Shown here piece after piece: positions 36,771 to 42,609 of a stretch of 64,000 bases of DNA. Source of the DNA: Alphaproteobacteria bacterium (GTDB lineage: Bacteria > Pseudomonadota > Alphaproteobacteria > SHVR01); assembly GCA_009694185.1 (NCBI GenBank), contig SHVR01000001.1, forward strand, positions 62,001 to 126,000, given 5' to 3'. The translations under genes and the position numbers were made by a program. Under the pieces are notes generated by a model. It did no database searches. It was not told where the DNA came from and saw only the letters and a list, made by a program, of their open reading frames with translations. Within the stretch, counting starts at the first letter, position 1. Each line of letters starts with the position of its first letter.

Positions 36771-38177
36771 CTAATACCCAGTCAGGCCGCCGAGATGCAG
36801 GGCGACGCCGATGCCCGCCGAGGCCAAAAGCGTCGGGATCATGCCGACCTTGAACCGGAAGACGGCGATGACCGCCGCGAGGGTGAGCAGCAGGGCGGCA
36901 ACATTCACGGAGGCGAGCACCGGCGCATCGAGGGCCATGAAGAAGGGTCGCGTCTCGGCAAAGAGCGTGTGCAGGGCAAACCATACCGCCAGATTCAGGA
37001 TCACGCCGACCACGGCGGCGGTGATGGCGGCGAGCGCGCCACTCAGCGCCTTGTTGCCGCGCAACGCCTCGATATAGGGGGCGCCGAGGAAAATCCAGAG
37101 AAAGCAGGGCGCGAAGGTGACCCAAGTGGCGAGCAAGCCGCCGAGCGTGCCCGCCAGCATCGGCGGCAGCCCGGATGCGTCGCGAAACGCCGCGAGAAAA
37201 CCCACAAATTGCACCACCATGATCAGCGGGCCGGGCGTGGTCTCGGCCATGCCGAGGCCGTCCAGCATCTCGCCCGGCTTGAGCCAGCCATAGGTCTCGA
37301 CCGCCTCCTGCGCCACATAGGCCAGCACCGCATAGGCGCCGCCAAAGGTGACCACGGCCATCTTGCTGAAGAAGACGGCTACTTGGGCATACACATTGCC
37401 AGCGCCGAGCAACAGGATCAGGGCCGCGACCGGCAACAACCAAAGGGCGGCGAAGATCGCCGATATCTTCAGCGACCAGGCGAGCGTCGGCCGGGCATGG
37501 TCGGGCATGGTCTCGCCGAGCGCGGAATCCGCGTCCTTGACCTCTTTGCCGCCAGCCTTGCCGTGACCGCCGCCGACCATAAACGCCGCGAGGCCGGCAC
37601 GCGCGCCGGCGAAGCCGATCAGGCCCGCTCCCAGCACGATCAGCGGGAAGCCGATACCGGCGACGAAGATGCCGAGGAAGGCAGCCACCGCGATGGCAAC
37701 CATGACGCCGTTCTTCAGCGCCCGCCGGCCGACCCTGAGGACGGCCTCCAGCACGATCGCCAGCACCGCGGCCTTGAGGCCGAAAAAGAGCGCCTGGACG
37801 ATGCCCGCCTTGCCGAGGCCGGCATAGAGCCAACTGAGCGCCATGATGGAAACGATTCCGGGCAACACGAAGAGGGTGCCGGCAACGAGCCCGCCCTTGG
37901 TCTTGTGCAGCAGCCAGCCGATATAGGTGGCAAGCTGCTGCGCCTCGGGCCCCGGCAGCAGGGTGCAGTAGTTGAGGGCGTGCAGGAAGCGGGTCTCGCC
38001 GATCCAGCGTTTCTCCTCTACCAGGATGCGGTGCATGACCGCGATCTGGCCGGCCGGCCCACCGAAGCTGAGGGCGGCGATGCGGACCCACACACGCACC
38101 GCCTCGCCGAAGGCAATGCCATGGGCGGGTGCCGCCGGGAGCGCCGCCGGTTCGATCGTCGCATCCACATTGGCCAT
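36771..38177 (-). CDS. chrA: chromate efflux transporter (two-domain ChrA)
   Basis: ALSFGGPAGQIAVMHRILVEEKRWIGETRFLHALNYCTLLPGPEAQQLATYIGW; second CHR domain FGGAYAVLAYVAQEAVETYGWL. Confidence 0.95.
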   Translation of the reverse strand: MANVDATIEPAALPAAPAHGIAFGEAVRVWVRIAALSFGGPAGQIAVMHRILVEEKRWIGETRFLHALNYCTLLPGPEAQQLATYIGWLLHKTKGGLVAGTLFVLPGIVSIMALSWLYAGLGKAGIVQALFFGLKAAVLAIVLEAVLRVGRRALKNGVMVAIAVAAFLGIFVAGIGFPLIVLGAGLIGFAGARAGLAAFMVGGGHGKAGGKEVKDADSALGETMPDHARPTLAWSLKISAIFAALWLLPVAALILLLGAGNVYAQVAVFFSKMAVVTFGGAYAVLAYVAQEAVETYGWLKPGEMLDGLGMAETTPGPLIMVVQFVGFLAAFRDASGLPPMLAGTLGGLLATWVTFAPCFLWIFLGAPYIEALRGNKALSGALAAITAAVVGVILNLAVWFALHTLFAETRPFFMALDAPVLASVNVAALLLTLAAVIAVFRFKVGMIPTLLASAGIGVALHLGGLTGY

Positions 38178-38191
38178 GGTCTTCTCTCCCG

Positions 38192-39178
38192 TCATGCCAA
38201 CCGGCACCGCGTGCCGCGGCCGGCTTCAAGCGCCAACTCATAGGCCCGGGCGGCGGCGGCTACGTCCTGGATGCCGGTCCCGGTACTGTCGAAGATCGTG
38301 ATCTCGTCACCGCGCGTCCGGCCGGGCCGGCGGCCGCCGACCAGATCGGCGAGCTCGCCATGGACGTCGCCCTCGCGCATCGCGCCAGCCGCGAGCGCAT
38401 GATGGAGATCGCCCATGGCGACGCACTGGGCGAGCATATCCGCGACCACGGTCGCTTGGGCCATGAGCGCCGGCGCAATTTCCCTCTTGTCCGGATTGTC
38501 GGCGCCGATGGCCGCGATGAATGTACCGGGCCGAACGTCGTCGATGCCGAGGAAGGGTTCGCTTGCCGTGGTGCAGGTGGCTATCACGTCGCTCTGGCGG
38601 GTGGCCGGGCGGTGGTCGGTGACCGCCACCACCTTGATCCCGAGCTCGGAGGACATCTCTCGCCCATAGCCGGCCGCCGCATCGCCATCCACGTCCCAGG
38701 CGAAGGCGCGACGGAGGCCAAGGCTATGGTGGAGGGCCTTGAGCTGGATGCGGCCTTGCGCGCCGCAACCGCACACGGTCGCGGTTGCGGAGTCTGGGCG
38801 CGCGAGATGGCGGGCGGCGATCGCCGTTGCCGCCCCGGTTCGCTGGATCGTGATTTCGATCGAATCCAGGAGGGCGAGCGGCGTGCCATTGGCACCATCC
38901 AAGAGCAGTACGGCGCCCTGGATGGTCGGCAGGCCGAACCGGCGCCGGTTGCCTGGAAAATTGGCATTGACCTTCACCGCCACATAGGGCCGGCCGAGCG
39001 TCAGGCCGGCGGCCTTGGCGTGGAAGCCGCCATCCTCGGCCTGAATGTGGAGTGGCGGCGGCGATGCGGATCGGCCTTCGGCATGCAGCCGGAAGGCCTG
39101 GTCAACGGCCTCTACATAGTCGGCGAACCGCATCACCGCCTGGAGGTCCCGGCGCGACAGGATCAGGATATCGCTCAT
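38192..39178 (-). CDS. ornithine cyclodeaminase / mu-crystallin family protein
   Basis: HAKAAGLTLGRPYVAVKVNANFPGNRRRFGLPTIQGAVLLLD; TVCGCGAQGRIQLKAL; GTFIAAIGADNPDKREI. Confidence 0.92.
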   Translation of the reverse strand: MSDILILSRRDLQAVMRFADYVEAVDQAFRLHAEGRSASPPPLHIQAEDGGFHAKAAGLTLGRPYVAVKVNANFPGNRRRFGLPTIQGAVLLLDGANGTPLALLDSIEITIQRTGAATAIAARHLARPDSATATVCGCGAQGRIQLKALHHSLGLRRAFAWDVDGDAAAGYGREMSSELGIKVVAVTDHRPATRQSDVIATCTTASEPFLGIDDVRPGTFIAAIGADNPDKREIAPALMAQATVVADMLAQCVAMGDLHHALAAGAMREGDVHGELADLVGGRRPGRTRGDEITIFDSTGTGIQDVAAAARAYELALEAGRGTRCRLA

Positions 39179-40131
39179 GACCGTGCCGCCAGGCCGCCGA
39201 ACGAACGATAGAGATCCTCGAACAAGGCGCCACCACGGTGAAGACGCTCGTCATCGTCCGACGTCTGGGCGTAAATTCCGGCGAGCAGCCGGCCGATCCC
39301 GGTTGCCTCCTCGCGGGCGAATTTGCCGTCCTTGAGGTCGAGATCGTGGACGATCTCGGCGATCGACTGTAACGCCGGGTCGGCCAAGCCGACCCTCGCC
39401 ATCAGCACCTCGAAGGTGCATTGCTCGCCGATATGGGTGATTTCGGCCTCGAACATGTCGAAGCGGACCTCGTCGGCCTGGCGGACATAGTCCTTGGTCG
39501 CCACGAACTTGAACCGCGCGGCCGGATCGACGCAGCGGCGCACCAGCCACGCCGACGCGATGCGGTCCACCTCGACGCCCCGCCGCGTCACCCAAACTTT
39601 GCCCGTGAGCGCGCCCGCTTTGGTCATGGCAGCCTCCTGTTCGGTGTCGGGAGCAGCCGGCTCGATACGCGCCTTGAGGGCGCCGAGCAGGCCCTCGACC
39701 ACCACCCGTCCGGTGGCGTCGAAGAAGTCGACGCGCGCCACATCGCGGAAGCGCCGTTCCAGCCTGCGCAGGGCGCTGGCAAGCTCAGCCTTTTCATGAT
39801 CGCCAAGGGCGCGTAGCTCGCGGGCGATCTCGTCATAGTCGGCGTCCCGGGCGGCGTTGAACAGGGCGCGGATGGCGGCATCGCCGAGGCCCTCGATGAA
39901 GCGCGCCTCGCAGAGTGTCGCCTCGGCGCCGCCTTCCACGATCTCGCGCCAGAGCCACTCGAAATCCTCCCGGGTCTGATCGCCGGCCGGCAGCACATAG
40001 ACCGAGTTTTTGAGCGCGATGGCGCCCAGACCCTGCAAGCGGCGCCAGATCTTGACCCGGAAATAGGCGGGCTTCGGTGGCAGTTGATGGATGAGAAGCA
40101 GCCATGGCGCCTCGCGGGGTTCGTCATTCAT
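39175..40131 (-). CDS. chrB: chromate resistance protein ChrB
   Basis: WLLLIHQLPPKPAYFRVKIWRRLQGLGAIALKNSVYVLP (N-domain); WVTRRGVEVDRIASAWLVRRCVDPAARFKFV (C-domain). Confidence 0.93.
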   Translation of the reverse strand: MNDEPREAPWLLLIHQLPPKPAYFRVKIWRRLQGLGAIALKNSVYVLPAGDQTREDFEWLWREIVEGGAEATLCEARFIEGLGDAAIRALFNAARDADYDEIARELRALGDHEKAELASALRRLERRFRDVARVDFFDATGRVVVEGLLGALKARIEPAAPDTEQEAAMTKAGALTGKVWVTRRGVEVDRIASAWLVRRCVDPAARFKFVATKDYVRQADEVRFDMFEAEITHIGEQCTFEVLMARVGLADPALQSIAEIVHDLDLKDGKFAREEATGIGRLLAGIYAQTSDDDERLHRGGALFEDLYRSFGGLAARS

Positions 40132-40154
40132 GGCGTTCTTGTATCACTTATCTG

Positions 40155-40185
40155 TTGATATAGCAACAACTGTATCATATATCAA
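40155..40185. promoter_or_regulatory. candidate operator TTGATATA-N15-TATATCAA in the chr divergent promoter
   Basis: 8-bp perfect inverted repeat in an AT-rich island within GC-rich DNA; GTATCA also repeats at 40141-40146 and 40172-40177. Confidence 0.6.
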
Positions 40186-40256
40186 TCGTCGTTCTTGAAA
40201 GGAGACCGACCGATGACACCATCCTTATCCTCGACTCTTTCCGCCGTGGTGACGCC

Positions 40257-40739
40257 ATGAAGTGGGTGACACGGGCGCGCCCGAAAATCGACCGCATCGC
40301 CTGCCCCTGGCTGATCACCCGCTTCATCGACCCAGCGCCGGAGTTTCTCTATGTGCCGAGCGAGCGCGTGCTTGCCATGGCTGACGAGACCGGCGCCACA
40401 CCCTATGACGTGCCCGGGGTCGAGTTCACCCATGTGGGCGAATTATGCAGTTTCGATGCATTCCTCGTCCGCTACAAGCTGAGCGACCCGGCGCTCGCCA
40501 GTTTGGCCTTGATCGTGCGCGGGGCGGACACTTCACGCCTCGATCTCACGCCCCAGTCGCCCGGCCTCTTCGCCATGTCGCTTGGCCTCTCGGCCTGCTT
40601 TGCCGACGACCATGAGATGCTGAAGCACGGCATGGTCATGTATGACGCGCTCTATGCCTGGTGCCGAAGCCTGCAAGGCGAGACCCATGCCTGGCCGCCG
40701 GCCGACTGGCCCCCCGTTCGATCGCCGGCAAAGGAGTAA
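40257..40739 (+). CDS. ChrB C-terminal-domain protein (stand-alone)
   Basis: MKWVTRARPKIDRIACPWLITRFIDPAPEFLYVPSERV; parallels the ChrB C-domain. Confidence 0.88.
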   Translation: MKWVTRARPKIDRIACPWLITRFIDPAPEFLYVPSERVLAMADETGATPYDVPGVEFTHVGELCSFDAFLVRYKLSDPALASLALIVRGADTSRLDLTPQSPGLFAMSLGLSACFADDHEMLKHGMVMYDALYAWCRSLQGETHAWPPADWPPVRSPAKE

Positions 40740-40744
40740 GACCG

Positions 40745-41659
40745 ATGATCTACGCCATCAAGCCGCTACCCTTCGAACCGGAGGCCGTGACGTTACTCTC
40801 CGAGAAGCTCGTCCAGAGCCATCACGCCAACAATTATTCGGGCGCGGTCAAGCGCCTGAACGCGCTGCGCGCCGAGTTCGCCCGGCTCGATTGGACCAAG
40901 GCCGCCAATTTCACGCTCAACGGCCTGAAGCGCGAGGAATTGATCGCCGCCAATTCGGCGTTCCTGCATGAGCTGTATTTCGAGAGCATCGGCGCTGGCT
41001 CGGCGCTCAAGCCCGGCGGCCTCGCGGTCGCCTTCGCGCGGGACTTCGGCGCCTTCGAGCGCTGGCGGGATGAATTCACCGCCATGGGCAAGGCGCTCGG
41101 TGGCGGCTCGGGATGGGTATTGTGCTCGTGGTCGAGCCAGGAGAACCGCCTCGTCAACCAATGGGCCGCCGACCATGCCCACCTTCTGGGCGGGGCCACG
41201 CCCATACTGGCACTCGACATGTATGAGCATGCCTATCACATGGATTTCGGCGCCAACGCCGCCCTCTATGTGGACACCTTCATGGCCAATATCGACTGGG
41301 AGAAGGCGAACGCCCGCTATGGGGCGGCCATCCACCATGCGACTTCCGATTTGGCCATGCCCAGCGCGGAGGTGCTCGGCGACAGGGACAAGATCATGCT
41401 GGTCGACGTCCGCCGCCAGGGCACCTTCGCGGCGGCCAAGGAGATGATCGCCGGCGCCACTTGGCAAGACCCTGAAAAAGTCGAGACCTGGTCGAGCACG
41501 CTCCCCCCGGCTAAGCCGGTGGTGGTCTATTGCGTCTATGGCCACGAAGTGGGGCAGTCGACCGCCGCGATCTTGCGCGCCAAGGGTATCGACGCGCGCT
41601 TCCTCGCGGGCGGTATTCACGACTGGCTGGCCGCCGGTCGGCCGATCCAGAAGAAGTAG
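40745..41659 (+). CDS. fused Fe/Mn superoxide dismutase - rhodanese (ChrC-ChrE-like) protein
   Basis: SOD part: SHHANNYSGAVKRLNAL, AFLHELYFESIG, ILALDMYEHAYHMDFG; rhodanese part: LVDVRRQGTF, PVVVYCVYGHEVGQSTAAILRAKGIDARFLAGGIHDWLAAG. Confidence 0.93.
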   Translation: MIYAIKPLPFEPEAVTLLSEKLVQSHHANNYSGAVKRLNALRAEFARLDWTKAANFTLNGLKREELIAANSAFLHELYFESIGAGSALKPGGLAVAFARDFGAFERWRDEFTAMGKALGGGSGWVLCSWSSQENRLVNQWAADHAHLLGGATPILALDMYEHAYHMDFGANAALYVDTFMANIDWEKANARYGAAIHHATSDLAMPSAEVLGDRDKIMLVDVRRQGTFAAAKEMIAGATWQDPEKVETWSSTLPPAKPVVVYCVYGHEVGQSTAAILRAKGIDARFLAGGIHDWLAAGRPIQKK

Positions 41660-41682: not shown

Positions 41683-42609
41683 ATGGCGATGAAGAATGTC
41701 GGTTATATCGACCTGCCAGAACATCGCGGCGCGGGTGGTTTCGACCATGCCGATATTCACGCGCCATCCGACCGTCTCTACGTCGCGCATACCGCCAACG
41801 ATGCGCTCGACGTGATCGACAGCGCACGGGATCGATACATCGAATCGGTATCCGGGCTGAAGGCGGTAGCCGGTGCGCTTGTGTCCGAAGCGCGCGGATT
41901 AGTCTTCACATCCAATCGTGGCGAGAACACGGTCTCGGTGTTTCAGCCACATGCCGAGCGGGACGCTTTCAAGATCGCCGTCGGCATGCAGCCCAATGGA
42001 CTCGCGTTCGACTCCGCGCGTGGCATTCTGATCGCCGCGAACGTGGGCGATCCCGCGATTCCGGGTTCGCATACGGTATCGGTCGTGGATATCGCGCGTC
42101 GCAAGCGGATCGCCGAGATCGAAGTCCCCGGCCGCACGCGCTGGGCGATTTACGACGGGGCGCTCGAGGTGTTCTTCGTCAATATCGCATCTCCGGCACG
42201 GATCGTCGTTATTGACGCCCGTGACCCGACCAAGGTCTCGAAGGCCTACGAGGTTCCGGCGGCAGGCCCGCACGGACTGGATATCGATCTCGCCACGGGG
42301 CGGTTACTGTGCGCCTGCGATGCCGGTGTGTTGCTCGCTATTGACGCCGTTTCGGGTCGTGTGCGCGGCGAAGTTTCCCTGAGCGGCGTGCCGGACGTCA
42401 TTTTCCACAATCCGCGATCCGGGCGCCTTTATGTCGCCATCGGCGATCCCGGGGTCATGGACGTGGTCGATATTGGCGCCATGCGCCGGGAGGAAGTGGT
42501 GCCGACGGAAGCCGGCGCGCACACGCTGGCGCTCGACCGGAAGAGAAACAAAGTCTACGCGTTCCTGCCGCAATCCCATCGTGCCGCGGTGTTCCAGGAC
42601 ACTGTTTGA
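41683..42609 (+). CDS. YncE-like beta-propeller repeat protein
   Basis: Repeated blades: RLYVAHTANDALDVIDSARDRYIESV, GLVFTSNRGENTVSVFQP, RLYVAIGDPGVMDVVDI. Confidence 0.85.
   Translation: MAMKNVGYIDLPEHRGAGGFDHADIHAPSDRLYVAHTANDALDVIDSARDRYIESVSGLKAVAGALVSEARGLVFTSNRGENTVSVFQPHAERDAFKIAVGMQPNGLAFDSARGILIAANVGDPAIPGSHTVSVVDIARRKRIAEIEVPGRTRWAIYDGALEVFFVNIASPARIVVIDARDPTKVSKAYEVPAAGPHGLDIDLATGRLLCACDAGVLLAIDAVSGRVRGEVSLSGVPDVIFHNPRSGRLYVAIGDPGVMDVVDIGAMRREEVVPTEAGAHTLALDRKRNKVYAFLPQSHRAAVFQDTV

Follow-up and report, generated by a model that had tools for sequence, protein, structure and literature searches.

A ChrC-like superoxide dismutase and a ChrE-like rhodanese are encoded by a single reading frame in an alphaproteobacterial chromate locus

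Organization of the chr locus

The genes considered here lie in a 64,000-nucleotide stretch of contig SHVR01000001.1 from an alphaproteobacterium, referred to below as the window, and are arranged in two divergent arms. The minus-strand arm comprises the regulator gene chrB (39178..40131; Pfam ChrB_N and ChrB_C), a gene of the ornithine cyclodeaminase/mu-crystallin (OCD) family (38195..39178; Pfam 2.6e-62), and chrA, which encodes the chromate efflux transporter (36774..38207; two Pfam Chromate_transp matches and TIGR00937 above its cut-off), with the OCD gene placed between chrB and chrA. The plus-strand arm comprises chrF, which encodes a stand-alone ChrB_C protein of 160 amino acids (40257..40739; Pfam ChrB_C 2e-49; 76% identity to CH34 chrF), the chrC-chrE fusion gene (40745..41659), and a YncE-like β-propeller gene (41683..42609) that is recognized by weak Pfam and NCBIfam propeller matches and shares 55% identity with a propeller gene in a Reyranella locus (L109). 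Both the chrA transporter and the chrB regulator of a chr determinant are thus present, and the Pfam and NCBIfam matches to chrA, chrB, and chrF, all near the fusion, bear out its initial annotation as part of a chromate locus. Relatives of the OCD gene also occur near two other fusion loci, L105 and L111, and a second chrF-like (ChrB_C) gene is found elsewhere in the source genome (G000:C21:28199-28621).

The chrB/chrF intergenic region contains two GTATCA direct repeats, 31 bp apart (40141..40177, plus strand), and a perfect inverted repeat, TTGATATA-N15-TATATCAA (40155-40185). No GTATCA pair at this spacing is expected in shuffles of the window. Among 146 loci, with two pieces of the same contig set aside, the GTATCA pattern recurs only in L109, L115, L130, and L135, always beside the start of chrB. 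The repeat pair is a candidate ChrB operator; compared by eye, the published operator of TnOtChr is unlike these repeats (PMC3817168). The same region contains a 15-codon open reading frame (40214-40261) with a good Shine-Dalgarno sequence, the stop codon of which overlaps the chrF start (ATGA) and which could be a leader peptide or a product of chance.

A close counterpart is the chr1 determinant on plasmid pMOL28 of Cupriavidus metallidurans CH34, in which chrC is followed by chrE; chrB, chrA, and chrF are in the vicinity, and a YncE gene lies at a greater distance. In pMOL28, chrC and chrE are distinct genes in different frames with 17 bp between them, whereas the window has one open reading frame; pMOL28 also has a single operon and no OCD gene, whereas the window locus is divergent and includes one. 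In a plasmid-collection search, the pMOL28 chrC and chrE products together span the entire window protein (100% coverage, 57% identity). Similar to the window, Pseudomonas sp. JS3066 (WP_330115695.1), Acidovorax sp. T1 (WP_087745642.1), and Rhizobium bangladeshense (WP_207603764.1) each have a fused SOD-rhodanese open reading frame beside chrB, chrA, and chrF, although the gene order differs and the fusions are 48-58% identical to that of the window.

Domain architecture of the fusion protein

The fusion gene begins at an ATG (40745) that lies 5 bp beyond the end of chrF and is preceded by a strong Shine-Dalgarno sequence, AAAGGAG. As initially annotated, it is a single frame joining an Fe/Mn SOD to a rhodanese: 304 residues are encoded without interruption, and both domains are recognized by Pfam and NCBIfam. 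The N-terminal SOD domain (residues 1-196; 40745..41332, plus strand) is 64% identical to CH34 ChrC over 195 residues and falls in the ChrC clade of the tree described below, which supports the proposed ChrC type. The C-terminal rhodanese domain (residues 208-303; 41366..41653, plus strand) is 45% identical to CH34 ChrE and contains the CVYGHEV loop with Cys263. Of the architecture first proposed (Sod_Fe_N and Sod_Fe_C plus Rhodanese), Pfam places Sod_Fe_C (7.6e-22, residues 92-191) and Rhodanese (3.6e-09, residues 213-296) in one frame, and Sod_Fe_N is not among the matches at E ≤ 0.001. The Rhodanese match (PF00581) scores 37.4 bits, above the cut-off of 22.2, and the active-site cysteine is present. 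The top NCBIfam match is ChrE (NF033833), followed by a SOD model over residues 6-198. Because the ChrE match, at 100.1 bits, falls below the curated cut-off of 120, the rhodanese is referred to here as ChrE-like only, in keeping with its initial assignment.

An AlphaFold2 model of the fusion (62 homologues) has a mean pLDDT of 93.4 and a pTM of 0.89. The SOD part adopts a SOD fold, with target-normalized TM scores of 0.78-0.91 against solved SODs; a SOD-rhodanese pair is absent from the PDB entries among the matches listed. In the model, a single continuous helix, residues 185-203 (41297..41353, plus strand), runs from the SOD toward the rhodanese. In 58 of 62 homologues, the spacing between Trp185 and Asp221 falls within 31-38 residues.

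An internal start within the fusion gene would yield two separate products, an outcome that the initial annotation recognized as incompatible with its reading. In favor of such a start, an AGGGA sequence lies 7 nt upstream of the ATG at codon 218. However, this codon is ATG in only 4 of 62 homologues and the other in-frame internal candidate, codon 205, in 2 of 62, and a product starting at codon 218 would be a rhodanese fold without its first residues. Because the internal ATGs are so rarely kept, a separate rhodanese product is very unlikely.

Distribution and evolution of the fusion

Searching a genome collection with the fused protein gave 371 loci, and the analysis covered the best 80. 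The SOD and the rhodanese are in one frame in 78 of these 80, a share that is overstated because loci were ranked by their similarity to a fused query; the exceptions are a Cupriavidus locus with separate genes (L110) and a broken locus (L098). The initial annotation held that the two proteins are normally separate. Among these matches the reverse is found, and separate, adjacent chrC and chrE genes are seen only in Cupriavidus. The idea that the fusion is a rarity was rejected on the same count, and an assembly error was rejected as its origin since the same open reading frame recurs in the close loci and on complete plasmids. The 80 loci are mostly from Burkholderiales, and in 75 of them chrA and/or chrB lies nearby in the flanking DNA examined. 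Four near relatives with some flanking sequence (L034, L035, L107, and L112) have neither chrA nor chrB in the flanking DNA examined. For L034, L035, and L107, two of which are among the closest relatives, this covers ~6 kb on each side, which indicates that the fusion can exist outside chr clusters. Of 399 genomes drawn evenly across the phylum, eight, including the window's own genome, have a strong match, and in three of the eight the match covers both parts.

A tree of the SOD part places the fused, separate, and solo ChrC proteins in a single clade, distinct from ordinary SODs (support 100/100). The window SOD falls in this ChrC clade and has chr genes beside it. Fused forms sit on several deep branches, and the window protein falls within a supported group whose 17 members are all fused and mostly from Betaproteobacteria. 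The best tree implies three changes between separate and fused forms, and one is also compatible. In the Reyranella locus L109 (2791-9733), a single divergent chr cluster has a solo ChrC on one arm and a fused ChrC-ChrE on the other; this cluster also carries chrF and the propeller gene.

These data bear on whether the tether matters at all. The fusion could be a neutral merger of neighboring, co-regulated genes, with the domains working independently, exactly as ChrC and ChrE do. The 17-bp spacing of chrC and chrE in C. metallidurans is what such a merger would start from, and separate and fused forms do share one clade, in which a single fusion origin is neither demanded nor contradicted. 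However, the fusion has been kept on several deep branches despite large divergence (identities down to 45%), and its linker is of near-constant length. A neutral merger therefore strikes us as a genuine possibility, albeit one that we would not expect to hold; it assigns the same functions to the two domains as the explanation preferred below and differs from it on the importance of the tether.

In public records, the name given to the fused protein is simply “Fe-Mn family superoxide dismutase”, with no mention of the rhodanese, and no description of a ChrC-ChrE fusion was found in the open-access literature, the part of the literature that the search mainly covered, subscription papers being largely outside it. 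The fusion is thus a widespread and apparently undescribed variant of known chr parts.

The rhodanese has a second fusion partner. In SMc00911 (“SodM-like”) of Sinorhizobium meliloti, as in the window, a rhodanese is fused to another Chr part, but in SMc00911 that part is a ChrF-like ChrB_C protein and there is no SOD domain (PMC3462710). Of 143 genomes of the class, 12 have a near full-length match to such a rhodanese-ChrB_C protein, interrupted by an in-frame stop in two cases, and in L008 the rhodanese-ChrB_C fusion (443-1294) lies beside separate chrC and chrA genes. That the rhodanese joins ChrC in some genomes and ChrF in others argues that ChrC, the ChrE-like rhodanese, and ChrF act in one process, as we infer here. 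The reading frame of the chrC that follows the L008 fusion opens with a twin-arginine-like leader, and the solo ChrC proteins of L119, L120, L126, and L133 likewise have extended N termini; some ChrC proteins may therefore be exported.

Active site of the SOD domain

The metal ligands, as identified by alignment, are His26 (the first His of SHH), His75 (FLHELYF), and Asp158 and His162 (LDMYEHAY). All are kept in 84-85 of 85 fused homologues, in agreement with the initial annotation of these motifs; Cys263 and Gly266 of the rhodanese are kept in 85 of 85. The second shell is another matter, and its departure from ordinary SODs had been overlooked. The gateway residues His30 and Tyr34 are highly conserved in Fe/Mn SODs, although they are not universal by definition. 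In the fused homologues, position 30 is Asn in 84 of 85 and position 34 is Ala in 85 of 85, and the window protein has the same residues. Relative to ordinary SODs, the second-shell changes are His to Asn30, His to Tyr31, Tyr to Ala34, Gln to Ser71, and Trp to Tyr160. These residues are fixed or nearly so in the 85 fused proteins, nearly so in nine shorter ones, and unlike those of ordinary SODs from the same class. Across 62 fused proteins, Asn30, Tyr31, Ala34, Ser71, Leu74, His144, and His165 are invariant, and most of them are unlike their counterparts in ordinary SODs.

Part of this pattern matches SodFM4, a little-studied subfamily described as tetrameric, in which the last His of the HXXXHH motif is lost and a C-terminal, water-coordinating His is present (PMC10172142). 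The fusion has both marks, HHANNY and His144, and is assigned to the subfamily by these residues rather than by a tree. His144 aligns with the corresponding His of the Pyrobaculum SOD and is likely a water ligand. Asn30 and Ala34 of the ChrC group depart further from ordinary SODs than the SodFM4 mark itself, and the Aquifex SOD (1coj), the best match among solved SODs, retains His and Tyr at these positions.

The His30/Tyr34 gateway matters for fast proton transfer. In human MnSOD, k1 is 0.25 for Y34A and 0.21 for H30N, compared with 1.5 for the wild type, so the first step is partly kept; for Y34A, k2 is <0.02, and the fast second step is nearly gone (PMC9208312). By analogy with these rates, SOD activity of the fusion is plausible but would be expected to be slower or differently gated. 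With its gateway replaced, the enzyme may be slow or may do something else.

A biochemical precedent is ChrC of Ochrobactrum tritici, which, similar to the window protein, is the SOD of a chr operon, that of TnOtChr (PMC4779226). The purified protein is an Fe-SOD and a tetramer (PMC4779226). Unlike the window protein, it is about 22 kDa, and therefore has no rhodanese, and is predicted to be periplasmic (PMC4779226). ChrF from the same operon has been reported as a Mn-SOD (PMC4779226). A plasmid locus, L117, shares the O. tritici layout (chrB-chrA-chrC-chrF, with a Tn3 transposase) and has the Asn30/Ala34 signature; O. tritici is likened to it by layout. By analogy with the separate O. tritici ChrC, Fe-SOD activity and a tetrameric assembly are plausible for the fusion.

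The same active site invites a more radical reading, in which the SOD-fold half is no longer mainly a dismutase and the gateway opened by Asn30 and Ala34 admits a larger substrate, such as a Cr(V)/Cr(VI)-thiol complex or a persulfide that the rhodanese generates. The fusion would then be a two-step chromium-sulfur detoxifying enzyme, a re-tooled ChrC SOD with a tethered rhodanese, rather than a SOD with a passenger. The invariant second shell and the joining of the rhodanese to ChrB_C proteins, which marks it as a partner of several Chr parts, are consistent with such an enzyme. On the other hand, the ChrC of O. tritici, which is encoded in a comparable operon (likened by operon rather than by sequence), is an active Fe-SOD, and no structure or assay points to an alternative substrate. 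A two-step enzyme therefore appears improbable.

The source assembly, which is 77% complete, yielded no Fe/Mn SOD other than the fusion, but it does contain a Cu/Zn SOD. Given that completeness and the Cu/Zn enzyme, the idea that the fusion is the only SOD of the cell was dropped.

Proposed function

The account that we favor, and consider probable, is that the ChrC-ChrE fusion is a single cytosolic accessory protein of the chr (chromate efflux) determinant, an Fe-SOD tethered to a rhodanese that handles persulfides or thiols. Cr(VI) entering the cell would pass through Cr(V) as thiols and flavoproteins reduce it, forming superoxide, and the N-terminal, tetramer-type iron SOD (SodFM4 subfamily, ChrC branch) would remove that superoxide. 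The C-terminal, single-domain rhodanese would carry a persulfide on Cys263 and act on a thiol or a chromium-thiol species. ChrB probably controls both the efflux arm (chrB-OCD-chrA) and the accessory arm (chrF, the fusion, and the propeller gene) from the shared intergenic region, and the tether probably fixes both the ratio of the two activities and their location on one tetrameric core. The rhodanese chemistry, the control by ChrB at this locus, and the benefit of the tether are inferred. The initial annotation thus stands as an observation, and its interpretation is partly supported. The types of the two domains, the chr locus, and a single frame kept across many taxa are borne out, and a coupling of superoxide removal to sulfur chemistry during Cr(VI) reduction is a possibility.

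Chr determinants act mainly by efflux. Under chromate, a chrC mutant of O. tritici accumulates ROS (PMC4779226), and deletion of chrC in C. metallidurans has a slight phenotype, lowering the chromate limit from 0.35 to 0.3 mM only (PMC2751784). Together, these phenotypes point to an accessory role that is protective and modest.

What the accessory chr genes do is a long-standing question. The widespread ChrC-ChrE tether and its sister fusion of rhodanese to ChrB_C suggest that the three parts act together, and the tethered form offers a single protein with which to test this idea. In addition, the conserved loss of the His30/Tyr34 gateway throughout ChrC provides a natural test of the role of those residues in SODs.
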